A DNA stretch of 64,000 nucleotides from Diphasiastrum complanatum. Lineage: Eukaryota > Streptophyta > Lycopodiopsida > Lycopodiales > Lycopodiaceae. A program made the translations under genes and the position numbers. How positions within the stretch are numbered: position 1 is the stretch's first letter; every line of letters begins with the position of its first letter. Of this stretch, positions 2,794 to 54,655 are shown one piece after another. The stretch covers positions 1,559,314 through 1,623,313 of the forward strand of contig CM055112.1 in the NCBI GenBank assembly GCA_029204225.1. The letters run 5' to 3'. Below the pieces are notes generated by a model. That model was given only the letters and a program-made list of their open reading frames with translations. It was not told the DNA's origin and ran no database searches.

Positions 2794-2919
2794 CTCCTCC
2801 TCAAAAAGTAGCTTGGAAAGGTACTAGATCACTTGAGAAGTTTGTAAATCTTTTTGAGTGGATCCTTTGGTATGCATAGGAAGTGAAGATCAGCCAAGGG
2901 ATCCATCATAGCAGCACCC

Positions 2920-5493: not shown

Positions 5494-6238
5494 GTAAAGT
5501 GGAGATAAATAAAAGTGATGAACAAAAAATGTTGCTTCTCTCTCACTATAGGATCCAATAATGGTGTGCTACCATCTCCTATGCAAGATCTTGCAACAAA
5601 CTGTGAGATGATTCTCACTAGCTATCTCAATCTCTCCAAAACTAGATCTACTTCACATCAAATGATGGAGTATGGGAAAAGTTAGGATCAAACACTCTTA
5701 GCACGTGTGAAATACACTAAGAAACCAAATTTGACTCAAATACAATGATATTGCATGAAACAAAATGGCTAAGATCTCAAAACAATGCCTAGATCACATA
5801 TAGATGAGATTGGTAAGCATTCAACTGTGATTTTGGATCAAACAAGCAATCTTTTGACCAAACCAAATGTGTCCACCCAGGTCTAGGTGCCCTACCTAAC
5901 CCTCTTCAAAAGCTTATAACTTTTGATTGGCTCAACCAAATGGAATGAAACTGATTGCATCAGAAACTAGACAAAAATAGCTTCAAAACAAGCTATCTAG
6001 CAAGATTTTTGGATCAAACATGAAAGAGAACTCCCAAACTGAAATTGGATGTTCCTCACACGTGTCTGAGCACCTGATTCCGTACAGTACCAGGTCAGAC
6101 CCAATCAATGTCCTTTTGATCTCTTTTGATCCAAAATTGAACAAGATAGCTAGGAAAATGGGCCTTGACAATTTCTAGCTCAAGATTGATGAATAGTTTT
6201 CACTCAAATGGATCAAAATGCATGGTAATCTTAGGTAG

Positions 6239-6250
6239 GCTCTGATACCA
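6239..6250 (-). promoter_or_regulatory. Primer-binding site, element A
   Basis: The minus strand reads TGGTATCAGAGC immediately inside the 5' LTR. This is the standard complement of plant initiator-Met tRNA 3' end used by copia elements. Confidence 0.95.
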
Positions 6251-7059
6251 TGTTGAATTTCACACGTGTGGATTGTCCACTACATGTACTTGTGATCTCC
6301 TAAGATGTGTAGATGCACCAAGATCAAGACTAGATTGAGATTCAAGATCTATCTTTGATTCTATGGCAAAAACACACTACTACATGCATTCAATCACTTC
6401 CAACTCTCACTCACACGTGTGGGAAGTGTTCCAAAAGTATTCTAAGTAAAAACAAGCTGCTCTCCTCGGGTAGAGAGAGAAAAACCATCAAGAGCTCTCG
6501 GGTAGAGAGAGAAAGCTAGAAATTCAATGACACTCAAAATCCACTCAATCTCAAAATCAATTAGATCCAAAAGGAGGAGTACAATGATACTAATAGATTC
6601 ATGAGCTACTACTATGCTTAACTATGATTGGATCACACTTTGCCACCTCTTAATCCTATTGGACCATTGATCCATGCACCTCTAAATTCTATTGGACTAT
6701 ATTCAAGCACACCTCAATTTTCTATTGGACCTCACAAGGTTCCACCTCTAAATCCTATTGGACCTCTTAAGCTTCATCAAACAAAAGCATGACACTTGTC
6801 TACACTCTAATTGGCACAAGTTTGGCTCAATATTGGCATTACAAGTGGAAATGGATAATGTGCCATCTATGCCAAATTTGACCCTATCAACATCCTACAC
6901 CTAAATGCTTGACTATGAAATTCTATGAGACCCCTATATCAAACATTTTGATTTACTTTACAATTCTCCACACGTGGGAACATCCTCCACACATGTGAGA
7001 TTCACTTACAAACTTCTATCATAAAAAATACCAAGCTAGGATTTTGCCAATTTCTCACA
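6251..7059 (-). repeat. Element A LTR (5' LTR)
   Basis: Same length and, by eye, the same sequence as 1985-2793. It is followed by the TTTGT target-site copy at 7060-7064. Transcription of the element should start in this LTR and run toward lower coordinates. Confidence 0.95.
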
Positions 7060-7197: not shown

Positions 7198-7269
7198 TGT
7201 AACTATCTGTCCATGAGAGTATGTAACTATCCGTCCATGGGAGCATGTAACTATCTGTCCATACTTAAT
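7198..7269. repeat. Three 24-bp tandem repeats
   Basis: Units begin TGTAACTATCTGTCCATG at 7198, 7222 and 7246 with few mismatches. They are in an otherwise featureless stretch just outside element A. Confidence 0.85.
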
Positions 7270-35437: not shown

Positions 35438-35588
35438 ATTTTGGCTCAATAGTGGCATTACAAGTGGAAATGCATAATTTGCATCTATGCCAAATTTATT
35501 TCTATCAACATCCTACACCTAGATGCTTGATGTAAAAAACATAAGACCCCTATATCTAACATAGATAATCTTTTTCAATTCTTCACAA
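35438..35588 (-). repeat. Fragment of an element A-type LTR
   Basis: It aligns with the inner third of the element A LTR (TTGGCTCAATATTGGCATTAC; CATCCTACACCTAAATGC; GACCCCTATATC) with several differences. It directly truncates the gypsy integrase. Confidence 0.85.
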
Positions 35589-35879
35589 TGCCCTGTAAAT
35601 AATTATGGGCATATAGAAAGATAGAGACAATGGAAAAAAGCATCCATTGTCATATACAAGACGCACATGTACATTCTCAGAAAATGAGAAATATATTGAT
35701 ATTTATGAGAGCTTTTACAAATATTGTATCATGATTGCTCTATTATCTGAACAATTCCGCCCAAATCTTTGCATTTGATTTTCTCTTCATGTCTTTTACG
35801 TATTTGCACAAACATACATCAATCAAATTATAGTTAGTGATCCAAATATTGACAAAAAGGATAATGAATACAAATTAAT

Positions 35880-37034
35880 ATACAAATTCATAGATTTCAC
35901 ATACCAATTTTCCATCCAATATAAAGCTGAAATATTCAGGGATATCTTGCTGTAAAAGTGTCAGTTCCGTTCTAATGTAGAATAAGGTCCAGTCCTGCTC
36001 AACCTCAATATTAGTAAGTAGCTCCCCATTTGCCATGATATCAATGCCTATACGATCAGTGTGTCCAATGTTGTCTAGATCTTGATCTAATGGGACCCAA
36101 GTACCATTGTGTTCTTTCCATCTCTGATAATAAAACACCATAAGAAATATCTGCAGTGGATCTTATATCCCAACCTTTGTCCATGAATTACAATAGAAAA
36201 TCATCTGATAGATTTTTACAAACAAACAATGTGGGAGTTCGATGCACCTCCATGTTTGAAAAAGAGCTGACAAACAATGACACTGGAACAAACCAGCTTA
36301 AGTGCACATTTTTTGATCTAGTACTAGTTTTGAGTAACTTCTGTACATCATTATATAGCTTGGAATGAAAACATTTTATTATATTGTCATTGACTGCAAT
36401 CCACCACACGTTATCTTGAAAATTAGATAGAGGTATAGACTCTAGTTTTTCCATTCCTCCATTTCTGTCTGGAATATACATAGCATCATGAAAAAATATT
36501 TCAGAATCTGCAAATTCTTTTGTTGTTCGTCCTCTATCTTGCAATTTGCCAATTTATGAATGGATGACATCTATAATACCTGAAAGAGATGCCACAGGTT
36601 CCCATTCATGTATATTTGAAGGATATAGATCTGCAATACAAAATCATAATACGCTCCGATTCATATATATGATTACGTTTTAAAAATGACAAGCAACCCA
36701 AAAAATTAAGATACTTACAATTACACTTTCAAAAATAATGTGGATTTACAGCCTCCACATTTAGTTCTGAATGCATATAAACATATTGAATAAGCACCTC
36801 TGAAATGGTTTGTCCTCTTGAAGAAGCTTTGAAATCAATAATCCGCCCTTTCCAATAAGATCTATATGTATACTTGGCCTCTTTCTTTTGGTGAAAAGCC
36901 CCTCTCGCCGATGGATGCATTAGTACCCAAGAAGCCTTATGATATTCATGAGCAATCCATGTGCCATCGTCTTCCCTCTCATTATAAAAAATTGCAGAGC
37001 ATATCAAGGATCTCGGTCTTCTTCTCATCACCAT
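35880..37034 (-). pseudogene. Multi-exon coding remnant, possible ubiquitin-like domain
   Basis: Three protein-like blocks on the minus strand. Block one (37034-36729) reads WKGRIIDFKASSRGQT, QYVYMHSELNVEAVNPHYF. Block two (36632-36188) follows an acceptor TTGCAG and contains WWIAVNDNIIKCF, SWFVPVSLFVSSFSNMEVHR, with one in-frame TAA near its start. Block three (about 36145-35880), after CACTGCAG, reads RIGIDIMANGELLTNIEVEQ, DWTLFYIRTELTLLQQ, PEYFSFILDG. The last block has the beta-strand, beta-strand, helix and DG pattern of ubiquitin-like folds. I do not recognise the protein. Its place between a CACTA end and duplicated 3' exons suggests it is the element's own gene. Confidence 0.5.
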
Positions 37035-37979
37035 AGCTTGAAGAGTTCACGTTTGAACTTGTCAATATCAGAGTCCAAAGTATAATAGGCGCCAAACCTA
37101 TTTGTGAGTCCCAAGATAATTTTAACTTGAGGTTAACCCAAGCAGTTTAGTCAACTAGTCGTTGCGCTTGCCAGCCAATAGTATGCTTCCAATCTACTGG
37201 ACCGGAAATTCAAATTTGCCCAAACATGAATTGTGTTTTCCGGGTCAGGAGAGTTATGTTACATAGAAGCCACTATGTCAAGAACCAATTGGGCCACATG
37301 GACATAAATAGTGAGGAAAAAAAAAACTCGTAAGAAATGGCCCCTCTAAGTTTGAGAACTCCTGTAATGTGCGCTCGTTCCCTATATCTACACCACTTAC
37401 GCTTCAATACAACCACCAAGTTTTTCAGGAGAAAACAGAGAGAATTTGAGTTTTCAAGTTTTTCCTTCTCTCTGCTTTCATAAGTCTTCTACTTGTTGAG
37501 TACTTCTGTTTCTGACAGTTGGTAAGCCTCACCTTGTCGGATATGTGCTTGTGAATGTAACTCTGGTCTCTGGTCAGACACTCCTTTAGCCTTGATATTA
37601 TTGTATGAGAGCAATCGTAAATTCATTGCTAATAGTGTCTTAAAACTCATTGATTATTTGATTGTCTGTGCGATTGAATAATTGATTGCTTGGAACTTAA
37701 TTGTGATGTTAACATTCGGAATCATTGTTACATTACACTGACATATATCCAGACTTGCACATCCTAAAGCTTGCTCTGTGTTGTTGTAAATCAATGCTCT
37801 GAAATTTGCATATAGATACTCGTGCAGTTTAACTTAGTAGTCAGTCGTTCTTTTGAATGAGCACTATCTGTTGTTGAGGACAGATTGTTGGACTATATTT
37901 GGATTGTACTGAGCCATTTGCATATTTCTCTGCCTTGGTTTATCTGATGCAATAGACCTCGCTTGTCTGACAAACTTTA
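37035..37979. other. No gene recognised; may include 5' half of an LTR
   Basis: The downstream 550 bases are clearly LTR family E. How far that LTR extends leftward could not be decided because the 5' part does not visibly align with the copy at 54673. Confidence 0.45.
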
Positions 37980-38027
37980 TTAGGTGCATAGACCAATATA
38001 TCGGTTTGGCCGATAAGTTGGATACAC

Positions 38028-38106
<79 letters not shown>

Positions 38107-38530
38107 CACTATTTAGAACCTTGGCAATTGTCTTGAATTTGCTAGTAGAATCATGCGCTTATCAACGCAATTGTATTGTGGTATGATCGTTGTATTTACA
38201 ACTTCATTATACAGATTCGTTGTTGTTCTACACCTTCGCATTCTTGTTGATGATAACTCTCATTTATCTCACACAAACATTATTAAGAAGAGAATTGTAT
38301 GGTTGTCTCTGACACCTGAATTAATTCTGCATTCTCTTCATATCAGGTTATCAATATTAGAGAATTGCATGGCTATCTCAGATGCCTAATTTCTTTTGCA
38401 ATCTCTCTTTCACGATAGTCTATGACTCCTACACTAATAATCTGATTTCACACACAAAGAACTGCTCGTAACTCCATTCTCTAAGTAATCCACGGTCCTG
38501 GTTATAATAATTTTTTTGTTTTTTTTCCAA
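37980..38530 (+). repeat. LTR family E, 3' part
   Basis: It matches 55500-55920 in order: GA microsatellite, TTTAGAACC/TGT, GCTTATCA, GAGAATTGCATGGCTATC, GATGCCTAAT, AGTCTATGACTCCTAC, TAATCCACGGTCCTG. It is followed by a primer-binding site at 38537. Confidence 0.8.
38029..38106. repeat. (GA)n microsatellite inside LTR E
   Basis: Interrupted once near 38090. It occupies the same place in the LTR as the shorter run at 55545-55574. Confidence 0.95.
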
Positions 38531-38536
38531 TAGAAG

Positions 38537-38548
38537 TGGTATCAAAGC
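38537..38548 (+). promoter_or_regulatory. Primer-binding site of a copia E element
   Basis: TGGTATCAAAGC is one mismatch from the initiator-Met tRNA primer site. The internal region after it (to about 38950) has no recognisable gag. Confidence 0.8.
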
Positions 38549-38959
38549 TGATATCTAATTCCGCCCATAGAGTGATATCAGTGCTTGCGGGAATAGATGG
38601 CATCCAAGGAGACCCTTGTGACCCTCGACTTTGGGACTCAACCCATGGTATAATTTCTAAGGGCTACGATAGCCAACCAATGAATTTCAATATGTGACTC
38701 ACCGACTTCGTCATGATTAGACCTCCCTACCTCAAAGTGCACCAAACCCAAGAGAAATCTCTCTTCCCTTGATCTTGAACGTTGGGATATTGTGGCCTTT
38801 TTCAAATGAAGGATTCCCCTAACTAAAGGCCAAGATCACTACCAATTTCCAAATTTCTCTTCTCTAGTAATGGCTTGGTAGGATCATTATTCAAACAACT
38901 GTGTTTTGCCATGCAAGGCCAAAATGTTAAGAAGGCCTTCATATATATTTATGAATGGA

Positions 38960-39530
38960 AAAGATCATACCATTAGGAATAAGGAAAAGTCATTTTCGGG
39001 TTTGTTATTTAGACAATCAAAGAGTCATTCTCAGACTTGGTTACGATTAATCGACCACAAGTGACCGCGAACAAAACAGTTATGATACGTTGTGGGGTTA
39101 CGAAGCTTGTTTGTGGAAAGCTGAGTTTGTGTATAAATAGGACAACTTTAGCCGAAGTAGGGACTACTAATTATTGAACATCATTTCGTTTACATTTGAT
39201 GATAATGGGTCAAAGCCTGTCTATCATTATGCAATGATTTACATACTCTATTGTTTGCACTGTAGGCAACAAGAAGCATATGCCTTGCTTAAGACCTTTT
39301 GAGCAGTAGCAACTAGAGGCTGTAATGTGCTCTGTATTGTGTAGAGCTATAATTGTTGTATCATAGTTTTATTCTAATCATGGTGTTGTTGGGTTGTTGT
39401 CTATAAAAAACTATTTATTTCTCCATTGCGGTTAATCTTTATTGCATATTGTAGGGTGGTTGTTATATGAATTTGGTTATGACGATGTACTTTAAAATCC
39501 TGTAATGGATACGTAGTTAAGCATTTATTT
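38960..39530 (+). repeat. Ty3/gypsy LTR remnant
   Basis: Shares TTGCTTAAGACCTTTTGAGCA and the following TATTGTGTA context with the gypsy LTR-like stretch at 20870-20940. It holds a TATA-like GTATAAATAGG near 39130. It ends by junction with a broken copia RT at 39545. Confidence 0.5.
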
Positions 39531-39544
39531 TATCCCCTATAGTT

Positions 39545-40139
39545 TCCACAAAAAAGAATGTCATCCACATAAAGTACAAGAATGATCACATCATATCTAT
39601 CAACTTGAAGTACAAAGATGGATCATATTCACTAAGAGTAAAATCTAGTGAGAGAAAAAAAAGTATTAATTTGAGAATACCAAAATTTTGAAGCATGCTT
39701 GAGACCATACAAGCTTTTGAAACGTAGGAAAACCTTATCCTCTTGACCTTGCATGATAAATCCCTCAAGTTGGTGCATGTAAATCTCCTCCTCAAGGTAA
39801 CCATTGAGAAAAGCATTAGTCACATCCATTTGATACATAAACCAATTGAAAAAAGATGCTAAGGCAATTAAAATTATGATGCTAGTCATTTTTGTCACGG
39901 GAGCAAAGGTTTTATTATAATCTAGACCTTTGACTTGAGCATATCCCTTTGCACAAAGCCTGGCTTTATACTTGTTGATAGAACCATCTTCATTGTATTT
40001 GTTTCTAAACAAACTGAGCTTAATTGACTTTGTGACTAGTTCTACATATGCACAGTGGTTCCGGAAACTCTAAACACTCATTTACAACCAATTTTATTTT
40101 TGTTTGGTGGAAGATCAACCAATTTCCAAGTATGATTTA
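39545..40139 (-). pseudogene. Old copia RT, right-hand exon of a split element
   Basis: Minus-strand RT: NHTWKLVDLPPNKNK then TGA in place of Trp, a short unrelated insert near 40020-40080, INKYKARLCAKGYAQ, QMDVTNAFLNGYLEEEIYM, YGLKHASKFWYS, and in another frame LVLYVDDILF followed by a stop. It ends abruptly at 39545. Element D was inserted at 40139 within this gene. The other half continues at 46570. A decayed, immobile copy. Confidence 0.88.
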
Positions 40140-40794
40140 TGTGAAAAATACAGATCCTAAGTGGATCTAAACTCCAAGATCATTGGCTTGAATGCTTGCA
40201 CTCCAAACTACATAAGCTAGGAATTGGCAACACATTCTATGCTACCTAGAATGCAAAGAACTTGATCAAAAAGCATTTATCACAAATGGAAACTTCCATA
40301 AACATCAAGTGCGGCCCAAAATAACATTATACAGTCCATAATACATCAGCCTACCACTTTTGGAAAGCACCTAAGATCATACACAATAGCTTGAAGACAA
40401 TACACACAACAATGCTCTCAATGGAGGAAGAAACAATGACAATGATCTATTGATCTCAATGAAGCATACAAAAGGTTTCTCCAACCTGTTCTCCACGACT
40501 TCCCTACTATTTATGGATGAGGAAGATGACTCTCTCTCCTCTCTCTAGAAGGTACTTGACCCTAGATATTCCCTATATAGGAAAAATAGCTAAAAATGGC
40601 TTATATGACCAAAATACATCAAAATGGTCTCATTTTGAAGGGTATGAAGTTTGACACTTCATCATACTGAAAAAATACAGTAAATAAAAACATTGTGGCC
40701 TGGTTCACACGTGTGAAACTCCAGAACCAAAACTATTTACAATTTTAGCCAATTTAGGCCTCAAACTAGCTAGGAAATGTTGACAATTTTCACA
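40140..40794 (-). repeat. Element D 3' LTR
   Basis: Begins TGTGAAAAATACAG and ends TTTTCACA. Contains CACACGTGTG at 40706-40715. Has one extra A (GGAAACTTCC) compared with the other LTR. Confidence 0.97.
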
Positions 40795-43700
40795 CTCCCT
40801 CTTCAACATTGGATGCTAGTTTCAACATAGTCTTTGAGCACATTCCAAGATTAGATCTATGCATTAAATATAGGTCCTTTCCCAATGGTTTGGTGAAGAT
40901 ATCAGCCACACACTCCTTTGAAGAGACATGTTGAAGCTCCACCTCTTTGGCAATGACTTGATCTCTCACAAAATGGTGAGCAATCTCAATGTGCTTGCTC
41001 CTTGCATGAAAAACAGGATTGCTTGCCAAGCTTTGGGCTGAAAGGTTATCACAAAGTATGATTGGAGTCTTCTCTGGTTCCAGCAAGTGAAGATCCAATA
41101 ACATCCTCTTGATCCAAAGAATCTCCTTGGTGCATGTTGTTAATGCCTTGTACTCGGCTTCGGTGGAAGATAGAGAGATAGTTGGTTGCTTCTTTGATAG
41201 CCATGAGACCACTCCATCTCCAAGATAGATTGCAAAGGCACTTGTTGACTTCCTATCCATTTGATCACCTGCAAAATCTGAATCTGAAAATCCACAAAGG
41301 TTAGGTGTAGTACCTCCATACAAGATGCCAAAATCTCTAGATCCCGAGATGTATCTAAGTACTCTCTTTCCTAGCTTCCAATGAGCCTCACTAGGATCTT
41401 GCATAAATTGACTTAGTTTACCAACCACAAAGCTTAGATCAGGTCTTGTGATGGTTAACCATATAAGAGATCCTATTAGCTTTCTATAGAGAGTAATGTC
41501 CTTGAAGGATCTTTCATTGCTTCTTGTAGTTAGCTTTACATTTGATTCCATAGGAGTAGAAACAACTTTACAATCTTCCATATGAAACCTTTTTAGAATA
41601 GAGTTAACATACTTTTCTTGACATATGAATGTAGATTTAGAAGTTCTAATAATCTCTATTCCTAAGATATAATGAAGTTTACCAAGATCTTGAATTTCAA
41701 ACTCTCTTTTGAGTGCCATCTTGATTTCATCTATATCTAGATTGTTACCACCACTTAAGATAATGTCATCAACATAGATCAAAAGTAAAGTGATATCATT
41801 TTCATTCAATCTAAAGTAGAGAGAATGATCATACTCACTCATAACAAATTTTTGAGAAAGTAAGAAGGAATTGAGCTTAGCATACCAACTCCTTGGTGCT
41901 TGCTTTAGCCCATACAAACTCTTTTGGAGATAGCACACATGATTAGGCTCATCATGTGAAACATAGCCCTCGGGTTGCTCCATGTAAATATCTTCTTCAA
42001 GATCACCATTCAAGAAGGCATTAGTAACATCCATTTGCCACATATCCCAATCATAAAGAGTTGCAAGAGAGATTAGGATTCGAATAGTTACCATCTTTGC
42101 CACGGGTGCAAAGGTCTCATCATAGTCAATACCATATTCTTGAGCATACCCCTTTGCCACCAACCTTGCCTTGTACTTGTTGATTGATCCATCTTGATTT
42201 GTCTTGATCTTGAAGATCCACTTACAACCAATTGCCTTCTTGTCCTTTGGAAGCTTTACCAACCTCCATGTGTTGCTTTTGATGAGTGCTTGATGCTCAT
42301 GATCCATGGCTTGGATCCATTCCTTCTTTTGAATTGCTTCACCTACACAAGTTGGTTCATCAAAAGAGGTAAGAAAAGCAAAGTTAGAGTTGTCCACCAC
42401 TTGCTTTCCTTTTTCATCATAGGTTAGCCTTGATGGCTTAGCCCTTTGCCTTTGAGTCTTCCTTGAAGTTTGCTTTGGAGTGGCATCTCCATCTTCATCC
42501 AAGACATCTTGCACATCATGATGATTAGTAGGCACATCAACATCAACATCAACAACATTGGAAACATTCTCTTCATGAAAGATGACATCCCTACTTATGA
42601 CAACTTTCTTTGTAGAAGGAATGTACACTTTGTAAGCCTTGCTTACTTCACTATAGCCAACAAACACACCCTTCTTTGATGAAGGATCTTCTTTAGTTCT
42701 ATCATCAAGTGTGATATTGACAAAACATGTACATCCAAAGATCCTACAATGCTTGACACTCGGCCTTCTACCATAAAGAACCTCATGAGGAGTTTTACCA
42801 TCCAAGGAAGCACTTGTCCATCTATTACATAGATAGTTAGCACATGCTAAAGCTTCCCCCCAAAAAGACTTAGCAAGATTAGCATGTAGTCTCATTGCCT
42901 TGGCACATTCACAAAGGGTTCTATTCTTCCTCTCGGCCACTCCATTATGTTGTGGAGTCCTAGGACTAGACATCTCCCTCTTAATCCCATGTGCTATACA
43001 AAAGTCTTTGAACCTATTTGAGGTGTATTCCCCTCCATTATCAGATCTTAAGCATTTGATCTTTGTATTGAATTGGTTTTCCATTTCATTCTTGAACTTG
43101 ACAAATGCAGCAAACACTTCATCCTTACTTTTAAGAAGATAGATCCAAGTATACCTACTAAAGTCATCAATGAAAGTTGCATACATCTTTGCCCCACCAT
43201 TGCTAGTTGTACTAGAAGAATGAATATCAGAATGCACAAGTTGAAAAGCTTCTTTAGATCTAGAAGTAGATCTAGAATAAGCAAGTCTATGAGATTTGGA
43301 CAAGGCACAATGTTCACAAACACTATTGTTTGCAACAAGACTTTTAGGGAGACCAAGAACAAGCTCTTTCTTTGCCATTACCTCCAAAGATTTGAAGTTG
43401 GGATGTCCCAACCTCTTGTGCCAAACTTCTTGGTTTGTCAATTGCTCCCTAGCCATACATCCTTCATGATTAGAGATCACACATGCATCAAGCTTGAAAA
43501 GTTTACCATGCCTCCTACCTTGAGCAATCAAGGATCCACATTTACTTATCAAACATGCATCTCCAATGAACTCCACATCAAGTCCTTTGTCAATCATTTG
43601 ACTTACACTAAGCAAATTCTTAGTGATTGAAGGAATGTACAAAACATTTTCAAGATTTGCTTTCCTATTTGTTGAAAGGGAAATAGGAATAGTGCCTATG

Positions 43701-44743
43701 CCTTTGATGTCACATTGACCATCATTTGCAGTGTAGATGATGTCACCTTCTCTCTCATAAGACAATAAGGATGTAAAGTATTCCTTATGTCTTGTCATGT
43801 GAGATGAGGCTCCACTATCAATCCACCAAGGATCATTATCATCTATGTTGGCTAACAAACTTGAAGTCATAACAAGTGATTCACATGTGTTATGTTCTTC
43901 CTCATCTATTGTAAGATTTCCTTGCCTCTCTCCTTGCTCTCTTTTCTTCTTATAACATTCATTTGCAAAATGACCTTTTATCCCACAATAAAAGCACTTG
44001 AACTTTGACTTATTGTTCTTAGTAGAAGAGGAAGAGGAAGAGTGATCATCATGATCAAAGTTACCACCTTTGGACCATTTCCCTTTGCCTTTACCTTTGC
44101 CCTTGAATTTGTCTTTTGTGAAGAAAGCCTCTTCACCTCCACCTTGCAAGGATGCACCATCAAGCTTTGATTGCAACCTATGTTCTTCAGCCAATAAGAT
44201 TTCTTGCAAGTCAACCACACTTGGCAAGACTCTTTGAATGGCAAAACTTTGCACAAGGTTAGCATGTTCATTTAGCAAACCATTCAACATAACTTGGACT
44301 ATTTCACCATCTTTTATGTTCTCATCAATGCATGCTAAATCATCACTTAGGGACTTAACTCTCAAGATAAATGCATGAGCACTTTCACCCTCTCTTTGCC
44401 TACTAGAAAATATTTGTCTCCTTAGGGTCAATACCCTAGATGTGGACTTTGATTCAAAGAGCTTCTTTAAGGCATTCCATGCCTCACTTGCACTTTGACA
44501 CTTTCCAACTTCCTTGAGAAGTTCATTTGTAACATTCATTTTAATGATATGAAGAGCCCTTTTGGCCTTCTTATCAAACCTTTGTTGCTCTTGAAGTGTG
44601 AGAGGTCTCTCTTCAATTTCTGCAACTATGTCCATGAGTTCATTCAACTCAAGTAAGGACTCCATCCTCACTTTCCAAGTAGAGTAGTTTGATGAACTCA
44701 ACCTTTCACTAGACTCTAGCATGATCCCACCATTGGAAGCCAT
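40790..44743 (-). CDS. Intact Ty1/copia Gag-Pol polyprotein
   Basis: 1317 aa in one frame. Gag spans about 1-230 with UBN2 homology (SNYSTWKVRMESLL; LTLRRQIFSS). A Gly-Lys-rich stretch precedes the zinc knuckle CFYCGIKGHFANEC (C250-C263). Protease WWIDSGASSHM has Asp309. The integrase zinc finger has WHKRLGH (441-447) and CEHC (476-479). The integrase triad Asp506, Asp568, Glu604 keeps the DD35E spacing. Reverse transcriptase has QMDVTNAFLNG (Asp905) and YVDD (990-993). RNase H has Asp1154/Asp1156, Glu1195/Glu1197 and Asp1232 and ends VADIFTKPLG. All catalytic residues expected for the family are present. It would make virus-like particles, copy its RNA into DNA and integrate it. The start ATG is the first in frame and matches the related elements. 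Confidence 0.97.
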   Translation of the reverse strand: MASNGGIMLESSERLSSSNYSTWKVRMESLLELNELMDIVAEIEERPLTLQEQQRFDKKAKRALHIIKMNVTNELLKEVGKCQSASEAWNALKKLFESKSTSRVLTLRRQIFSSRQREGESAHAFILRVKSLSDDLACIDENIKDGEIVQVMLNGLLNEHANLVQSFAIQRVLPSVVDLQEILLAEEHRLQSKLDGASLQGGGEEAFFTKDKFKGKGKGKGKWSKGGNFDHDDHSSSSSSTKNNKSKFKCFYCGIKGHFANECYKKKREQGERQGNLTIDEEEHNTCESLVMTSSLLANIDDNDPWWIDSGASSHMTRHKEYFTSLLSYEREGDIIYTANDGQCDIKGIGTIPISLSTNRKANLENVLYIPSITKNLLSVSQMIDKGLDVEFIGDACLISKCGSLIAQGRRHGKLFKLDACVISNHEGCMAREQLTNQEVWHKRLGHPNFKSLEVMAKKELVLGLPKSLVANNSVCEHCALSKSHRLAYSRSTSRSKEAFQLVHSDIHSSSTTSNGGAKMYATFIDDFSRYTWIYLLKSKDEVFAAFVKFKNEMENQFNTKIKCLRSDNGGEYTSNRFKDFCIAHGIKREMSSPRTPQHNGVAERKNRTLCECAKAMRLHANLAKSFWGEALACANYLCNRWTSASLDGKTPHEVLYGRRPSVKHCRIFGCTCFVNITLDDRTKEDPSSKKGVFVGYSEVSKAYKVYIPSTKKVVISRDVIFHEENVSNVVDVDVDVPTNHHDVQDVLDEDGDATPKQTSRKTQRQRAKPSRLTYDEKGKQVVDNSNFAFLTSFDEPTCVGEAIQKKEWIQAMDHEHQALIKSNTWRLVKLPKDKKAIGCKWIFKIKTNQDGSINKYKARLVAKGYAQEYGIDYDETFAPVAKMVTIRILISLATLYDWDMWQMDVTNAFLNGDLEEDIYMEQPEGYVSHDEPNHVCYLQKSLYGLKQAPRSWYAKLNSFLLSQKFVMSEYDHSLYFRLNENDITLLLIYVDDIILSGGNNLDIDEIKMALKREFEIQDLGKLHYILGIEIIRTSKSTFICQEKYVNSILKRFHMEDCKVVSTPMESNVKLTTRSNERSFKDITLYRKLIGSLIWLTITRPDLSFVVGKLSQFMQDPSEAHWKLGKRVLRYISGSRDFGILYGGTTPNLCGFSDSDFAGDQMDRKSTSAFAIYLGDGVVSWLSKKQPTISLSSTEAEYKALTTCTKEILWIKRMLLDLHLLEPEKTPIILCDNLSAQSLASNPVFHARSKHIEIAHHFVRDQVIAKEVELQHVSSKECVADIFTKPLGKDLYLMHRSNLGMCSKTMLKLASNVEEGV

Positions 44744-45903
44744 GATTCTAATGTTTTTTCAACTTTTAGGTTTTGTCCTAAAGCACTTAGCACTCACTTT
44801 TCTCTCAACAAATGATAGATAAAGAGATCTATGAAGATTTAGGACCCTAAAACACTTCTATCTTGAACCTAGATGGTTTCCAAGCATAGAAAGGAAGATT
44901 GAAACACATGCAACACTTTGCACACACTAAGAATGGATTACAAAATCAAACCAACCTGAACACACTCTTGCTTAAGCTCTCAAACTTTCCAGCAAGTGAC
45001 CAAATCAAGTTATGGTGTGAAGAGTTACTTGCATTCTTAGAAAATACCCAAAACTAGGATGCCAAGATTACCTAGTAATGAACAAACTTGATCAACATAT
45101 GATCAACACACTAAGATATTGATTCAACCTGTAAAACCACATGTAAACCACACTTCTAAAAGTTTATAAAATCCAGCAAGTGATAAATACAAGATTTAGA
45201 GGTGAATGAATGAGCACACTTAGTGAATCACAAGACTAGCTTCACTATCTTGTCAAATCTTGGTGTTTAGATGTAGATCTAAGATCACTTCACATGAGAA
45301 TGTTCCTCAACCTGTTAAGAACCTGAAAACACACTTGCATAATGGTTAACACCTTCCAGCAAATGCTCCAATCAAATTACATAAGGAGAGTTACTTACAT
45401 GCTCAACAAAGTACACCAAAAATTATGCCAAAATTGATGACAATCTTTACAATATGCTCTTCACAATGGAGCTTACAATATGTTCACCCAAAAAAGGGGA
45501 TCTTTCATCCAAATGGGAGCTTTGCTCAGCCTTTAGGAGAATTACAACTCACTCAAAAGAGCATTTGTCATCCACTTAAGGAGAAGTTTCATCCACTTAA
45601 GGAGAGTGTTCATCCAAGAATGGAGATTGTCAACAATAGGATTGAAAAGAACATTGTTAGTATTGAATATGCACAAGCCTCACAATCACAAATGATTAGG
45701 TGTTATGATCTGATCCAAAATAGTTTCTTTTCAGCCTCTAATCTTCAATAGACCTGAAATATGCTTTTGATCCACAAGTTCAACTCACAAAACAAAGGTT
45801 AGTAAGATTTGATCAACAAAGCAATGCAAAATCATGCTAGAACTTGATCAAACATCCAAATATCACCAAAAATGGAATACTTACTGTAAATAGAAGCCAA
45901 CCA
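44744..45903 (-). other. Element D untranslated leader
   Basis: About 1.16 kb between the primer site and the polyprotein start, long for copia. It holds no ORF of note on the coding strand. At about 45565-45615 CATCCACTTAAGGAGA occurs twice in tandem. The packaging signal would be expected here. Confidence 0.7.
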
Positions 45904-45915
45904 GCTCTGATACCA
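45904..45915 (-). promoter_or_regulatory. Primer-binding site, element D
   Basis: Minus strand TGGTATCAGAGC abuts the 5' LTR, as in elements A and B. Confidence 0.95.
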
Positions 45916-46569
45916 TGTGAAAAATACAGATCCTAAGTGGATCTAAACTCCAAGATCATTGGCTTGAATGCTTGCACTCCAAACTACATAAGCTAGGAAT
46001 TGGCAACACATTCTATGCTACCTAGAATGCAAAGAACTTGATCAAAAAGCATTTATCACAAATGGAACTTCCATAAACATCAAGTGCGGCCCAAAATAAC
46101 ATTATACAGTCCATAATACATCAGCCTACCACTTTTGGAAAGCACCTAAGATCATACACAATAGCTTGAAGACAATACACACAACAATGCTCTCAATGGA
46201 GGAAGAAACAATGACAATGATCTATTGATCTCAATGAAGCATACAAAAGGTTTCTCCAACCTGTTCTCCACGACTTCCCTACTATTTATGGATGAGGAAG
46301 ATGACTCTCTCTCCTCTCTCTAGAAGGTACTTGACCCTAGATATTCCCTATATAGGAAAAATAGCTAAAAATGGCTTATATGACCAAAATACATCAAAAT
46401 GGTCTCATTTTGAAGGGTATGAAGTTTGACACTTCATCATACTGAAAAAATACAGTAAATAAAAACATTGTGGCCTGGTTCACACGTGTGAAACTCCAGA
46501 ACCAAAACTATTTACAATTTTAGCCAATTTAGGCCTCAAACTAGCTAGGAAATGTTGACAATTTTCACA
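45916..46569 (-). repeat. Element D 5' LTR
   Basis: 654 bp, same sequence as 40140-40794 except for a single A deletion. CACACGTGTG at 46481-46490. Confidence 0.97.
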
Positions 46570-46850
46570 ATTTAAAATCAATGTTTAAAACTCCAAAGAC
46601 ACGACCTCATGCCAAATCTCTGATTCTAATGCATCTTTCACACACGAAGGCTCATCAAAGGAGATGAAAAGTGCATTACCAATCTTGGCTTGCTCCCCTT
46701 TGTCAACATAAGTTAGCCTAAGTTCCTCGGCCTTATAACTTAAAGATTTGCTTGGAGTCTTGGATTGAGAAAATTGCTCCTCAAGCCTCGACCCCTCTCC
46801 ATCATCCTCTTGAAAAATAGGTAGCTTCATGGATCCAACATCAATTAATT
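46570..46850 (-). pseudogene. Old copia RT, left-hand part of the split element
   Basis: Minus-strand LTYVDKGEQAKIGNALF, SFDEPSCVKDALESEIWHEV, the region just before and at the start of copia RT. It stops at the target site of element D and is continued by 40139-39545, which confirms that one older element was interrupted. An in-frame TAA lies near 46590. Confidence 0.88.
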
Positions 46851-48104
46851 AAGCCTAGTGAGCATTTTCCTAATTAGGTTTATTTTCCTTGACTAGCATT
46901 GATGTCCCTTTGAATAGTGTTGTCACATTAATGCCATATGCAGGTGCTCAATACAATTGGGATAATTGACATTCTCTATGTCGTCACCAATGGAGAATGC
47001 AAATATATGGTTTAAATTCCAATTCTTGTTCTTTGGAAGAGAGTTGCAAAGAAAAATTGTTTCGAAAGTGCATCGTATGTATATCGATGGGTGTTAAAAA
47101 ATACATGAAAACATCGTTGCATATATAGATAATTCTATTTTTTACTCTTCATTAACTAATTGTGACTTTGAAGAATGCACCAATGGAAAAGTGTTAAAAT
47201 TGAATCCATCTTCAAATCAATATAGATCGTTTTTAGGAGGAGTGTTAAAATTGAAAAACAATCCATATTGATTTCTTGGCTTGCTACAAATGTTGTACCA
47301 TGCAAGTATGTAGCCCATTAATGCAAAATGCCAAGTTTGGACTACATAGAACTCGAGCTACATGGTTATGTATTATCTAGTTTGATAAATGCAACTTGCA
47401 TATAGTTTGTAGACATAGAATTAGCATGATTATGCTTGTAGAAGCTCGTGGCAGCTCACATGCATTAATTGTAAGTGATCCATAGTGACATGCAAGGCAT
47501 GCACAAAGTTTAATGGACACATGCATGATGATTTGGACATTTCTAGTTAGAACTAGTACACTTGTAAAAAGTTGGTAGAATTTCATGCATGACAAGTGAC
47601 AAATGGCACATAGACTCTAGATGTCACTTTAGATGTCATTTTGGAATGGATAGATATGGTTCTACCTCGAGCTACCTCAATCTCCATAAATATGTGTAGC
47701 TCTCCACACAATCAATAATGTAGAACCAAAGTTTTGTAGCTATCTCATGCTTGGTTGGATCTAAACTGTTTTTCTTGTTATCTCTCTAGCTTTCTCTCTC
47801 TAACTCGTGTTGAAGCTAATGCTAAAACACTGTAATCTTGTACTTTTAATCATTATTTGATTCATTGCTATCATAGTCTATTGATTAGCATGCTAGATTG
47901 TGAATTAGCCATATCTTCTGAACAATCTAGAATCAGGGTACTGTGCCAATCACAAAGCTTAATCAAGATCATTCACTCTTGTGAACATTTCCTACATGTG
48001 TGAATTCTGGAATTTTCAGCAAAAAGAAGATTGTGAAAAGCTACATATATAATATTTTGTGCGATTAAACCTATTAAATGTGGTGAAAAGCTATTAATCA
48101 AAGC
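46851..48104. other. Possible copia LTR and unassigned DNA
   Basis: At 47230-47240 TTAGGAGGAG is followed by TGTTAAAATTG, which looks like a polypurine tract and LTR start of a plus-strand copia element whose LTR might run to about 48010. A second matching LTR was not found, so this is tentative. No gene in the remainder. Confidence 0.35.
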
Positions 48105-49728
48105 TCGGTTGATGTCCTTGGAACTTTTTTGAGACCACTCGTGGATGAATTGGAGTATCTTTTTGTAAGTGGAATTGAGCTATATTACGACTATCCTCCC
48201 GACAACAAGCATTGTCATCTTTGTGCCATGTTGATAATGGTAATAGGAGATCCTCCTGCCCAGCGTAATTGGTCTCCTCAAAGATAGTGGCAAGGCTCTT
48301 TGTTGTCGAGATAAAGCTCAAGCTACCTTTGAAAATAGTCATGAAAAATGTATTATATGGTGGAAACAGATATCAAACCAGATATCCTCCAACCAAGCAG
48401 CTAATTTCTGAAATGGTAGAGGTCTTATCTAGATCAAAGAGGCCATGTCGCCAAATTGAAAAAGAAGAAATACTAAGAGGTGCTACACTATCAGGAGAGT
48501 CAACTCTTCAGAGGTTGTATGAACCGTATGGCTTCAATCTATCAATAGATTTTGTTTATGATGTTATGCACATCTTTTTCTTGAAGTTGTTTTGCAGATT
48601 TATATCATCTTTCTTCAAGGAATCAACAAATGATATGAAAAAAATCATCAATGTAGCAGTTTCAGAGGTGTTCAAGTCTACCCCCACCTCACTCCGCTAT
48701 GGACGTTGGCCACATGCGCCAAGGAAGTATCATGGAAACTTCAAAGCATAGGAGAATCAAAAGTTTATACAATGGTGCTTGCCTCACGTCCTGGGTGTTG
48801 TGACTAGTGTTCCCAGATCTTTCTATGACCTAGGTCTTCTATTAATTGATATTGCACAATTTTTCTACAACTACAGTCATGACATAGGATGGTCAAACAA
48901 GGATATAGAAATAGCCAAACGTTTGTTGCTTTCTTGGACGTTCCACAATGAGGAATCCTAAGGAAAATATTCATCTCTGTTGGAGCATATAGCAGGTTTG
49001 AGTTTCATTTTGATTTTCATATAAACGATGTGCATTTTTTGGTCTACACCTCTTATCTCCTTGTTAACAATGCAGGCAGCGGAGAAATTTTTTACGACAT
49101 TTATCGACCTGACATGCATGATGTTTTTTGGTGCATGCTTTTGAGCGAGAGTTATCTAGTTATGTGAATATTTCTACCAATAACCTAAGTATTGAATTAT
49201 CATTTTCTCAATATTATAGAAGGCAACTTTTCACTCTAGTTCTTGAGATGATCGAAAATGACAAAGATGGTCTAATCTCCTTTGAAATAATGCTCTTGGA
49301 ATTCCATACTTGTTTGATTCTCCCATAAGGATACGCAAATGAAAGTGTCCAATCCTCCATATATATGACATGGCATGAGCATGGAATTCTACAAGTTTCA
49401 TCTATTGCGAAGGCCAAAGAAGTCTGAAAATCACGTATTGCCTATAGTCAAAATTATACATGTAAGAGTCTTTTGGAAGACAAAGGGATTTCGATTACAA
49501 AGAGAAAAGAACAATATCGAGCTCCAAAGAAGGAGGAAGTCCAATACGTAGAGCATTTTTGGTGTATTGAAAGGAATCAAGGGCAATTTAGACGAGTTAC
49601 AATTTATAGGAAAGTATTTTTGCGAGGAGTTTTTGCATTGCAACACAAGGGAGAGTGCATGCTTTTCTTTGGTGCTAAGTACTACAAGCAACAAATTGTA
49701 GTTCAAGATAGTGAAAAAAGTCGCTGAG
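48105..49728 (+). pseudogene. CACTA TNP2-type transposase remnant
   Basis: Begins LGTFLRPLVDELEYLF, then IVIGDPPAQ-like GDPPAQRNW, the TNP2/transposase_21 pattern. A frameshift near 48280 leads to YGGNRYQTRYPPTKQLISEM, LRGATLSGESTLQRLYEPYG and VYDVMHIFFLKLF (DxMH motif of the transposase domain), then RYGRWPHAPRKYHGNFKA with TAG at 48749, WCLPHVLGVV, LLLIDIAQFFYNYS, TAA at 48959. An 80-bp GT-AG intron (48996-49075) interrupts SLLEHIAG|SGEIFYDIY. After another frameshift FERELSSYVNIST, LSFSQYYRRQLF, and later VEHFWCIERNQGQF, the C-terminal region. The enzyme cuts and joins CACTA ends. Frameshifts and two stops make it non-functional. It converges on the histone-like gene, whose end lies about 95 bp away. 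Confidence 0.75.
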
Positions 49729-49821
49729 CTAACTTCAATCAGAAAACGTATAATAAATTAGTTGTGCACTTTAAAAAAACAAATCATATTACCTATCAGA
49801 TACTAGATGAAAAATACTTAC

Positions 49822-51135
49822 TTCTACATCAACAATCTCCATGTGGCTATTTACAGTGGCCCCATCTGGCCTTGGCAAAAATGGCAACATTCTGCTGTAC
49901 ATCATGTCCATTTCGGCATGGGTAGACTTCAAGGAATTCATATTTAAACAGATGGGATTAATGATCCTATCTGAATCTTCCCTAAGGGATAATTAGTTAA
50001 ATTGAAAGAATTACAAAACTTATTAAAAATATGTGACTTGAATATATTCTATGTAATCACTTACTTTTGGCAGTATGGAATAATAAAGACTTTGGTCTCC
50101 GAGGTTGTATGGAGAAGATACTTTGCCGCCTTAGTTGGACTATGAAGGTTGTGTGCAAAAAAGGACATCACAACTCCAATATCCTTAGTATCATCGCATT
50201 TACATCTATTTACAAAATACATCAAACCAGCCTCCACAACTGGATTAGATATATCTGATGTCTTCTCCTTCAAGGCATTTCAAAAGTCTTTATTGTGTGA
50301 TTTACATAATCAATTGAACTTAGACAAAAAGAAAATTGACCTCCTAACTTATCAATCTCTTTGGCAACATACTCATCAAAAACTATATACCTCTCAGAAT
50401 CCAAAAATGAATCTTTCGGATCAACAAGAATCTTACACAAAGATCCTTATAAAAATCACCTATTAAAGTTATATCTAGATCCGATATTATTTGATCTACA
50501 GTAGAGGTCATATCCTCATTATTGTGGGATGGAATGGAGGGAATGGAAGAGGAACTACTTGAATAGTTAGGGGTGGTGGGAGGAGAAGAATGCATTGCAG
50601 ACTGGTGTGATGGTCCAACCAAAGGACGAGAGATATGAGGGGGGGATGGTGATTCGCTAGATACGACCCTTTGCCTGGCAGGCCTAGTGGGCTTGGTCTG
50701 TTTTCTCTTTCTTCGTTGAGGAACACGCCCTCTCTCTATAGGTGGTGGCCTAGAGGTGAAGCCACTCTTAAGACCTGATCGTATGTACTCCTTAGCCTCA
50801 TGACAAGATGCATGTCATGAGGCATGAGGGTAACTCTCTTGGCGTGCACTGTGCAAAGCTTAGAGTCCTCAAAAAATTCAACTTGAAAGTCCCCATAGGC
50901 AGTATGGAGGGCTTCCATCATCATGTGAGAGTGACTTTGTCACTAATCTCACAGGCCTATAGAATGGAGCATGGGGAATCAGAAGATTCGTTGTCCTCTG
51001 TAGTCTTATGATATCCCTTAACCATGATCTGCTAGGCCGACCTACTCTTCTACTAGTGCCCACTGCCCTTTGTACATGAGGACGAGGAGGCGGGGCAAAT
51101 GTGGTAAGATGTGTTGTCTGCTTGGTATGGGCCAT
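49822..51135 (-). pseudogene. Histone H3/CENH3-like fold fused to Ulp1-like region
   Basis: ATG at 51135 opens MAHTKQTT, like histone H3 MARTKQTA. The H3 core follows: alphaN/alpha1 as RPSRSWLRDIIRLQ, TTNLLIPHAPFYRPVR; after a frameshift near 50948, alpha2-alpha3 as MEALHTAYGDFQVEFFEDSK, LCTVHAKRVTLMPHDMHL. TTNLLIP and VTLM are CENH3-like; canonical H3 has STELLIR and VTIM. A frameshift near 50795 leads, with no stop, into a linker (RPPPIERGRVPQRRKRKQ, then Ser/Pro-rich) open to about 50440. Two more frameshifts lead to VFDEYVAKEIDKLGG, VVEAGLMYFVN, TKVFIIPYCQ, an 83-bp intron (49982-50064) and NMNSLKSTHAEMDMMYSRML, ending at a donor by 49822. The last part resembles Ulp1/C48 proteases but lacks the catalytic His-Trp. 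Histone fold is secure; CENH3 origin, fusion and protease are inference. The whole H3 core is intronless. Confidence 0.75.
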
Positions 51136-51399
51136 TTCAACCTAAGATATCGTTATAGCATGCCAATCAGAGAGAACAGAGCATATCAGACAGGGGAGAC
51201 GCATGATGACGATATGCGAGATGGCATATCACTATGACGCGCGGAGGGGGAAGCTTTACTAGTATCAAACTCTCTGGGCACGTGGTGGCAGTATGCGGAT
51301 AGCGAGGTTGGCAAGTGAACGTAGAATCCTGAGGAGCTCTAGAGAACCAAGAAATCCGAAATGGAAATATGAGCTCAAAACATCCTTTTATACCTGTAG

Positions 51400-51690
51400 A
51401 ACGTCCCATCATTCTCACACGTGTGATCTGACACCTGCACCCCCGCACGTGTGGCCACACGCATCATCACACAGACCTGCCACGTGTAAGGATATCAATG
51501 GTCTCATCAATCATACGGCTGGCATGCACGTGCGAGGACACGTGTCTTGATCTGGGCCACACACATGTAATGGGACGACTAGCTTGTACAATCATACAGT
51601 TGGCATGCACGTGCGAGAACACGTGTCAAGATTCGATTTGTACATGTGTCATGCTAATGATTTGGCCATTGTTTCCACACATGTGACAAT
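51400..51690. promoter_or_regulatory. Array of CACGTG-type motifs in a divergent intergenic region
   Basis: Between the histone-like gene and the gene starting at 51982. Motifs include CACACGTGTG (51416-51425), GCACGTGTGG, CCACGTGTAA, two copies of GCATGCACGTGCGAG followed by ACACGTGTC, and CACATGTG variants. The two long copies form an 81-bp tandem repeat (51509-51670). A TATA-like CTATATATATGAG at about 51743 points to the downstream gene. CACGTG is the G-box bound by bHLH and bZIP factors. In a CACTA context the array could instead be subterminal binding sites. Confidence 0.6.
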
Positions 51691-51981
51691 TTTTACCGCA
51701 CGTTACCGAAACATGTCTACGGTTCAGATGCTCTGTATTACACTATATATATGAGTGTCGTTTTTCGAGATCAGTTTTGCATATTGAGTCTAGGAGACCA
51801 ACCTGCTCTAAAATCAGTACATACAATATTGCTACCACGTGCCCAAAACTGACACTTCCATAGTCGCACTGCTCCCCTGGTGCATACTTCTGATATCCAA
51901 AATTGTGTGTAGTGCATATCGCCATCACACGCCCAAGTTTACACTGTTTATGTCCCATCCTAACCGGCACCTCATATCGAT

Positions 51982-53520
51982 ATGGCCTCCTCTTCTGCTA
52001 GTTAGATCTATGATATAGCTCTTAGTTCTTTCCTTGTTGATGTTGAAGTTAGCGACAGACAGGCCCTTTTTTTGTCCTATTTCGATTTTTAGTTTGACAT
52101 AGAGAGATTTGTTATTGAGCATAGGGAAGCTTTTCCCAAACTGTACAAGGATTTTTATGAGTGATTGCAACAGGGTACCCTTCTGATGGATGGCCTGAGA
52201 TTTGTGCATTTCACATATTTGGCTCATGCTCAGCCTAGTGCCAAGCAAAGGTATGATCGTAAGTTTACCAAACTTATCGATCTGTTTAAATGTGTCATAC
52301 CCTATGAGGAACACAATCGAGTATGTCGCTTCATTCAGGAGGGCATGGCCTTCATGTTTTTCTTATCTGCTCTTATCCCTGACGAGGCAGAATCTTCTGG
52401 GTCATCTATGATTGGTTTGCCTGCCCCCACTACTCGTGTGGCTTCAAAGGTTTCCATTATTGATGAGGTTTTAGGATATGCAAAGGAGGCCAGGCAAGCA
52501 CAACAATATGATCCTGCCAAGGCTCGTTCTTTATCTATCTCTCCCTTATCTACCGTGAGCCAGATGGACCAGAGCAGAACCCTGATGGACCTCCCTTTGT
52601 ACCATATGGATGATATGGCATTCTTGTCCATTAGCGACATCAGAGACGTAATGGATCTCAGAGAGGATGAGATATTATCTCTTTTGTCAAGGATGATTTC
52701 TGAATTTAGTGATTTTATTGACTTTGATGATAATGACCTCATAGATGGCATCGACTATGAGGACCAAGAAGAATGGGCAAGTGGCACAGATGCCCTTCAA
52801 AGGATGTTATCTGAGAGCAGGGCATATGAGGCTAATATGCCGAGTGAGGAGGAGTTTTTGGCATTTCAGAAAAGGTATCTGCCACCTCCCATATATACTA
52901 TTCCAGCTGACCAGCAATCGACCATTATTGCTGGTCACAATTTAGAAGTTGCTGGTGTGATCCAAGCTGATGAGGAGGATCTGGTAAGTACACCTTCTCA
53001 CAAAAATCATTTACCATTTAACGTGTAACTGATGATTGATCTGCTAGTTTGACTAACACTTGATTATGTGTTGTAGGAAATCGTTGAAATTGATGCCTTT
53101 GCTAGCAGGCATGGAGGATTGAGAGAAAGACAAGGCGGGAGACCAAAGGATGCCTTATTGGCTCATTATTTGAAACATTTTGTAAATAACAAAATTTGTA
53201 TTCTTAACGAAAGGTTTTTTGTTAATGCAGGAACCTTGATCATGGCCATCAAGGCCCTATCTTATTTTGCCCAAGGGCATAAATATCCAAAAAATACATA
53301 TAAAATCATTTTTGTCAAAAGAGATGTTGCTCTTAAAATGTTCAATAAAGTGCCAGAAAATGTTCCTATGAGATCATCTGCTCTGGCAATTCTACCAGGA
53401 TATATAGATTTGAGCAAAAGGCGATCCACTCGATTTTTGGATCCGTATGATGGGAAAAAGTTCTTTCATGACCACACAGCAAAAATTGTCCTTAGAGACA
53501 ATGAGAAAAGAATGATTTAT
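51982..53520 (+). pseudogene. Unrecognised two-exon gene, divergent from histone-like gene
   Basis: ATG 51982 opens MASSSAS, then TAG (52003), TAG (52090) and TGA (52162), each in frame. From 52165 the frame stays open to 52983 (FVHFTYLAHAQPSAKQRYDR; NRVCRFIQEGMAFMFF; a very acidic region EFSDFIDFDDNDLID; QKRYLPPPIYTIPADQQ). A GT-AG intron of 93 bp (52984-53076) keeps the frame into exon two: EIVEIDAFASRHGGLRERQG, GRPKDALLAHYLKHF, AIKALSYFAQGHKYPKNTYK, FLDPYDGKKFFHDHTAK. It is cut at about 53520 by a copia fragment. I recognise no family. Two of the stops (TAG at 52090, TGA at 52162) fit C-to-T decay of CAG and CGA codons. Its head-to-head position suggests it belongs to the same element as the transposase and histone-like gene. 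Confidence 0.6.
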
Positions 53521-53521
53521 G

Positions 53522-54655
53522 CAAATTGCACAAGGCACTATACGGTCTGAAGCAAGCTTCAAGGGCCTGGTATGATAGAATAAATCATTTCTTGTTGCAG
53601 TACGACTTTACCTCCTGCACCGCAGATTCAAATGTGTATCTAAAATCGAAGGGGCCAAGCTATCTATAATAGCATTATATGTTGATGATTCCCTAATCAT
53701 CAGCAATTCAAATCAGTTGCTACAAGAAACTAAGTCCTTACTCTCATTAGAGTTTGAGATGATTGATTTAGGCCCAATCCATTACCTAATTGGAATGGAG
53801 ATTCATAGAGATCACGCGAGCAGAAGGGTCACCATAAGCCAACAATCCTACTTAATTAATGTACTTCAAAGATATGGCATGGAGGATTGCAAGCCCATAG
53901 ACACTCCTATGGATCCAAGATACAAACTATCCAAAGACATGTGCCCCAGAACAAATGCAGATCAGCAAAAAATGCGTAATTAGCTTTATCAATCTATCAT
54001 AGGTTCTCTCATGTATTCTATGATTTGCACACAACCTGATCTAGCATATGCTGTAAGCACGCTATCACAATTCATGTCCAATCCAAGCCTGCAACACTGG
54101 AAAGCTCTACAAAGAGTTTTGAAATACATTCAATCCTCAAAGGACTATGTCTTGAGTTACAACGGGAATACAGAAGCCGCACTCTCTTTGATTACCTACT
54201 AATTCAGATTGGGCAAGAGACATAGATACCAGAAAATCCACCTTTTGTTACATTTGCTTTCTTGAAGGAGGACCCATTTCATGGAATAGCAGAGATACAT
54301 TTCATTATCCTCTATGCAATCAGAATATGTCGCAGCTACGTCAACAATGAAGGAGATTTTATGGCTTAGAAAACTACTACAGGATCTGAGATTCACAAAT
54401 TGGTCCAACTAAACTCCAGTGTGACAATCAGAGTTGTATAGCTCTGTCATTGAACTGACGAACTCACACAAGGACCAAACATGTAGAAGTTCAACTTCAT
54501 TTTCTCAAAGAGAAGGTTCAGAATGAAGATGTTGCACTAAGTTACTATCACACCGATAGTATGCTGGCTGGCATTATGACAAAATCATTGCCAAGGGACA
54601 AACATTCTACTTTAGTAGAATTGTTAAATCTCAATTTGAGTCCAAATTCATAGCA
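53522..54655 (+). pseudogene. Copia E reverse transcriptase-RNase H remnant
   Basis: Starts KLHKALYGLKQASRAWYD, then ALYVDDSLIIS, FEMIDLGPIHYLIGMEIHRD, YGMEDCKPIDTPMD, GSLMYSMICTQPDLAYAVST in two frames, and RNase H pieces (SMQSEYVAATSTMKEILW) in shifted frames up to 54650. Several stops and frameshifts. It is followed directly by a purine tract (AAGGGGGAG) and LTR E. The upstream half is replaced by the unrelated gene ending at 53520. Confidence 0.88.

Follow-up and report, generated by a model that had tools for sequence, protein, structure and literature searches.

A decayed plant DNA transposon in Diphasiastrum complanatum with a gene joining a histone H3 fold to a C48/Ulp1-like domain

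Few proteins are as conserved and as tightly controlled as histone H3. In the openly licensed literature we found one close precedent for the element described here, a hAT transposon of the fungus Pyrenophora tritici-repentis which carries an H3-like gene, H3L (Manning et al. 2013, PMC3538342). The fungal element is a DNA transposon with terminal inverted repeats and a divergent H3-like gene fitting neither H3 nor CenH3, as is the case here. It has a hAT transposase, 5.6- and 2.3-kb forms and 26 nearly identical H3L genes, with no protease domain; the present element shows a RAG1/Transib fold, a length of about 9 kb, a C48 fusion, five families, far more candidates and a selection signal. A second parallel comes from the Vandal MULEs of plants and their Kaonashi/VANC (KIU) genes: some VANC genes carry Ulp1 domains, and VANC proteins counter silencing (PMC13317346). 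As here, a plant DNA transposon has captured a Ulp1 domain within an accessory gene, but its transposase is Mutator-like and there is no histone part. Transib-like proteins have also been reported in plants (PMC9435367).

The copy in the window

The stretch analysed (64,000 nt of Diphasiastrum complanatum, hereafter the window) holds a decayed copy of a DNA transposon of about 9 kb, in which the histone-protease gene is real but dead (Table 1). A previous sequence-only reading had placed an H3 start, MAHTKQTT, on the minus strand, and this start, at 51135, is genuine. The N-terminal half of the histone matched PF00125 with E=3.5e-5 (24.5 bits, slightly below the 26.4 cut-off) and the C-terminal half, in a different frame, with E=7.2e-12 (46.1 bits); histone H3 chains were the top matches of both halves in a PDB sequence search. 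The basic RRKRK linker and its Ser/Pro stretch are likewise present, in the open frame 50383-50814. This frame does join the histone end and the linker locally, as had been proposed, but it does not extend over the gene, which carries frameshifts and a stop. Compared codon by codon with a full-frame relative, the window copy is short of 7 and 4 bp in codons 75-80 and of one base each in codons 129, 243 and 287; a shift at 165-166 is compensated, and codon 292 is a stop.

Exon 1 runs to 50065 (GT at 50064) and exon 2 to 49822 (GT at 49821), as read from the sequence, and the latter is where the earlier reading had begun the locus. The spliced, protease-like blocks noted there exist as remains only: exon 2 has lost about 38 bp, including its acceptor and the codons for His-Trp, and the match to the element stops at 49723, within exon 3 and ahead of the catalytic Cys. 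PF02902 gave no match in any scanned window frame downstream of the histone, and an Rfam search at the gathering threshold gave none either. A lone pseudogene of a host H3 gene was considered and is disfavoured by the terminal repeats, the copy number and the shared neighbours.

Table 1. Coordinates of element features in the window
Feature	Position	Strand	Evidence or remark
H3-like CDS, tail and first half of fold	50925..51135	-	ATG at 51135; PF00125 E=3.5e-5
H3-like CDS, second half of fold	50787..50939	-	shifted frame, 11 bp gone before; PF00125, codon comparison
Basic and Ser/Pro linker	50440..50770	-	open frame 50383-50814
Region before C48 core, remainder of exon 1	50065..50439	-	frameshifted; IIPYCQ at GT donor; alignment to full-frame copies
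Exon 2 remnant, C48-like domain	49822..49985	-	lacks His-Trp block
Main transposon piece	49723..53517	-	element 6829 down to 3003 of copy E14; blastn 82-92% identity
Partner gene, part 1	51964..52797	+	head to head with H3 gene; 82% protein identity to another copy's gene
Partner gene, part 2	53077..53547	+	85% over 149 aa to L018; 41% over 132 aa to family B
Right-end element piece	35587..37369	+	element 7220-9063; 91-95% identity to several copies
Right-hand gene, fragmented	35950..37046	-	tblastn 84-88%

The element has a four-gene layout (transposase, partner gene, the gene joining H3 fold and C48/Ulp1-like domain, right-hand gene), and its terminal repeats sit at sharp ends common to the copies. 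At least five copies align as far as 53517, beyond which the window continues with copia-like sequence. By tblastn, the partner gene and the right-hand gene were found within the window and the transposase was not. The right terminal inverted repeat ends at 37369, in a piece that runs counter to the H3 piece. The opposed pieces would be explained by a roughly 14-kb inversion (35587-49722) whose two breakpoints lie within the element; the alternative is two separate copies. In copy L013 an internal segment of about 2.9 kb is also inverted. The partner gene has no Pfam match, and its product has strongly acidic stretches at its end (in several copies FIDFDDDDLIDGIDYED) that could suit a histone-binding protein.

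Near-identical copies of 48886-54051, with the same lesions, lie elsewhere on C21, the window's own sequence: L002, near 19.48 Mb, is 99.1% identical over 3429 bp, and L003, near 1.71 Mb, is 99.7-100% identical in two pieces, with 50824-52558 absent. The window also contains a copia-type retrotransposon (40139-46569; long ORF 40790-44758) with direct repeats at 40139-40590 and 45915-46365, 5.8 kb apart, and, at 1985-6826, a retrotransposon-like gene (2920-5568) flanked by identical direct repeats 4266 bp apart.

Full-frame relatives, families and transposase class

The 1.74-Gb genome was searched with the linker frame, which gave 1987 first-look candidates; 150 were scored and all of them matched. 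Most copies are broken, a stop-free frame of at least 350 aa being present in 14 of the 150 (counted from the search listing). Twelve places were read, 9.9 kb each. Exon 1 (364 codons) carries no stop or shift in L012, L013, L015 and L017, and only mutually cancelling shifts in L009, L010 and L016. Joining the exons of copy E15 yields a 518-aa protein matching both PF00125 (3.4e-20) and PF02902 (22.7 bits, for a cut-off of 20.7). The same two domains were found in joined L012 (8.8e-21; 24.8 bits) and in joined L056, a family B copy (1e-27; 42.2 bits, E 1.1e-10), that is, in all three spliced copies tried. The earlier proposal of a transposon gene uniting an H3 fold with a Ulp1/C48-like domain is borne out by these matches, and copies joining the two parts do occur in the same genome. 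A genome-wide PF02902 search (3 matches among 150 scored) missed the fusion copies because the profile was searched exon by exon. Some small contigs duplicate chromosomal places, as shown by L009, L010 and L011 with 99.7-99.8% identity over 9.3-9.9 kb that extends into the flanks, so the copy numbers may include alternative haplotypes.

No annotated H3-C48 fusion was found by a one-sequence search (10 matches, none with PF02902 listed as a domain) or by a profile built from three families (2 matches), an absence that weighs little because plant transposon proteins often go unannotated and the search needs shared words.

A genome-wide PF00125 search gave 6325 first-look candidates, and the 150 scored contained 153 matches, all those listed exceeding the cut-off. 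Canonical-H3-level scores (about 164 bits) were obtained for 13, three of which were read (L058-L060); most other matches scored 95-110 bits. Among 17 further places read (L044-L057, L061-L063), L062 is a canonical H3 exon and the others fall into four families besides the window's family A. Family B (L051, L052, L056) has H3 and C48; family C (L057) has H3 and linker, the stretch read ending short of C48; family D (L044-L050, L053-L055, and L063 with its N-terminal part only) has a long poly-proline N-terminus followed by a terminal H3, and no C48; family E is represented by L061. PF00125 E-values are 3.4e-20 for family A, 1e-27 for B and 7e-30 for D.

The family B element (L084, L056, L085) carries the family A genes in identical order, with a transposase 65-69% identical to P0012, a partner gene at 36-41% and a right-hand gene at 50-66%. 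Family C has the partner gene and the transposase N-terminus. The partner gene is also present at 10 of 11 family D places and in family E; it lies head to head with H3 in the first three families and tail to tail with it in the other two. The proteins of A, B and C share 32-37% identity and keep the same architecture.

A relative of the transposase has the RAG1/Transib fold by fold comparison with a list holding no CACTA structure, so that kinship with the CACTA group may be compatible with this result. Pfam and PDB sequence searches gave nothing on the identity of the transposase, and no TNP2-type transposase (CACTA/EnSpm) was found with Pfam in the pieces or in eight relatives. RAG1/Transib elements have CACxxTG-type ends and a 5-bp target-site duplication; CACTA/EnSpm elements have CACTA ends and a 3-bp duplication. 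Here the ends begin CATTA and a target-site duplication was seen in none of the five copies with both ends read (of 11 further copies checked, two gave both ends and are among the five; the others gave one end or none), and these ends fit neither pattern. The element also differs from RAG1-like/Transib transposons in its lack of a Pfam match and in its extra genes, including the histone fusion. In L014, a second transposase gene of the same kind, about 67% similar, lies at 80-1696, right past the copy's right end; it probably belongs to another element family.

Affinity of the histone and selection on its fold

Identity to host H3 over the fold ranges from 40 of 88 positions (A) to 49 of 88 (B, D). 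Of the H3-H3' contacts 3-6 of 6 are retained, and of the loop DNA contacts 6-8 of 12. Plant CENH3 has a longer loop 1 than canonical H3; loop 1 is of canonical length in A, C, D and E, and one residue longer in B. The histone had been described as of centromeric type. This is not supported, the transposon histones forming a weakly supported group of their own and family A having a loop 1 of H3 length. The TNLLIP and VTLM sequences cited as CENH3 marks are indeed shared with CENH3 but are weak evidence. Compared with plant CENH3 sequences, the likeness consists of LLIP, VTLM and, in family A, a helix 2 starting with Trp; the differences are the H3-length loop 1 (A, C, D, E), the separate tree group and the attached C48.

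A 32-row tree sets the transposon histones apart from both the H3 and the CENH3 groups, though weakly (69/56; one change in 90% of bootstrap trees), and P0010 (Babesia), an ungrouped row, falls among them. Topology tests, with eight divergent rows left out, gave AU p=0.034 when family A was constrained with CENH3-type rows, p=0.011 when it was constrained with canonical H3, and p=0.077 when all transposon histones were constrained with canonical H3. Because canonical H3 rows stand apart from the transposon and CENH3-type rows together (99/96, unrooted tree), the transposon histones may descend from a CENH3; the CENH3 label is, on these alignments, not justified. Host CENH3 was not found among 150 scored of 5543 candidates obtained with a CENH3-fragment query: 13 places scored at canonical H3 level and 137 lower, and those of the lower ones that were read are transposon copies.

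Selection was estimated on 33 non-redundant family A copies out of 40 aligned (L003, L005, L010, L011, L029, L037 and the window were dropped). NG86 omega was 0.22 for the H3 fold, 0.86 for the tail, 0.68 for the linker and 0.64 for the C part. Simulating neutrality with three mutation spectra gave the fold values of 0.65-0.86 and lower 2.5% limits of 0.41-0.56; the other three parts fell inside their neutral ranges. The low fold omega results from a high pS (0.197, compared with 0.08-0.11 elsewhere), pN being similar to that of other parts, and variants were therefore split by sharing. Fold singletons are random-like (23 synonymous to 61 non-synonymous; 28% expected), in contrast to variants common to at least five copies (20 to 5; Fisher p=3.7e-6). 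The contrast persists when CpG/CHG-like sites are set aside (shared 14:1, singletons 14:41, p=2.4e-6), and it is absent in the tail, linker and C part (p=0.48, 0.44 and 0.20, respectively); these p-values are guides only, as copies are related and sites not fully independent. The mutation pattern indicates that dead copies decay neutrally and that the lineages that moved have preserved the H3 fold under purifying selection. No selection was seen on linker and C part within family A.

Upstream, element positions 4501-5400, the interval between the partner gene and the H3 gene, are 14-19% divergent, compared with 3-9% in most other segments of the element (E14, E15 and others). Together with the high fold pS, this suggests that promoter and H3 either predate the sequence around them or have been exchanged between copies; the divergence of the interval itself could reflect either fast evolution or exchange of a promoter cassette.

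Possible roles of the fusion protein

We give an even chance to a model in which a RAG1/Transib-type element of about 9 kb with four genes encodes an H3-C48 fusion that enters chromatin and acts as an anti-silencing factor. The protein would enter as an H3 substitute, or as H3-H4, and would probably be deposited over the element itself. H3K9 methylation is a main heterochromatin mark in plants. The tail K4 position is Lys in all 30 family A copies having that codon, and the K9 position is Leu in 29 of 30 and Ile in one; families B (MDRRKQTRRD) and C (MARTESTARA) also lack K9. Replacement of K9 by Leu would preclude H3K9 methylation on the element's histone, so that nucleosomes containing it could not receive the mark there. 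The K4/K9 pattern cannot be called selected, because tail omega is 0.86. By analogy with VANC genes, a K9-less H3 encoded by the element might serve as a natural anti-silencing device.

The C48-like part would trim SUMO conjugates, or merely bind them or dock. Its residues were scored in 18 family A rows, which include the window and the near-copies E09-E11. The catalytic Asp position is Asn in all 18. Ten rows keep His-Trp, which three lack as a block (window, L002, L004), and 15 keep Cys; in family B both His-Trp and Cys are present, again with Asn at the Asp position. The His-Asp-Cys triad is thus incomplete in both families. Peptidase activity appears doubtful, and with Asn in place of the catalytic Asp the domain may only bind or dock; binding is a possible function.

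Several findings run counter to the anti-silencing model: tail, linker and C part give no selection signal within family A; family D has neither a C48 part nor an H3-like N-terminus; only about half to two thirds of DNA contacts are kept (6-8/12); and target-site duplications are absent (0/5), unlike in RAG1/Transib elements. Partial loss of these contacts, with H3-H3' and fold residues mostly kept (3-6/6), would suit a decoy that occupies H3 chaperones, H4 or a histone-modifying enzyme outside nucleosomes and so weakens silencing or DNA-damage control. This seems unlikely to us; against it, the DNA-touching RVT of loop 2 and Arg of loop 1 are kept in all five families. Equally improbable is a role in targeting, partly proposed in the earlier reading, in which the H3 fold would anchor the transposition machinery to certain chromatin, such as newly assembled or centromeric nucleosomes, and steer insertion. 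The H3 gene does accompany the transposase in A and B, and the transposase N-terminus adjoins H3 in C, but A and D copies lie on many chromosomes with no clustering seen by chromosomal position, and a grouping of family A with CENH3-type rows was disfavoured in the topology test.

That the H3 piece is a functionless hitch-hiking fragment, as in many Pack-type elements, we consider very improbable. Plant DNA transposons commonly capture genes (PMC13317346), and the broken state of most scored copies agrees with this reading. The contrast between shared and singleton variants, confined to the H3 fold, disfavours chance or passive capture, as does an architecture conserved across families at 32-37% identity.

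Returning to the anti-silencing model, its broader form can be put forward more tentatively: a superfamily of RAG1/Transib-fold plant transposons may encode its own H3 variants (at least five families), placing K9-less nucleosomes on the element and evading H3K9-based silencing, with a SUMO-protease-like arm added in at least two families. If true, this would be a mobile element bringing its own chromatin. A lineage of transposons with an H3 of its own, diversified and, judging by the mutations, preserved within one plant genome, would offer a direct test of mobile DNA overriding silencing, and supplies natural H3s that differ widely in tail and in attached domain. It also bears on the origin of odd H3 variants.

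A separate observation concerns P0007, a 312-aa H3-like protein of Ceratopteris richardii whose N-terminus is much extended; it belongs to a 22-sequence cluster and might be a multi-copy histone too.
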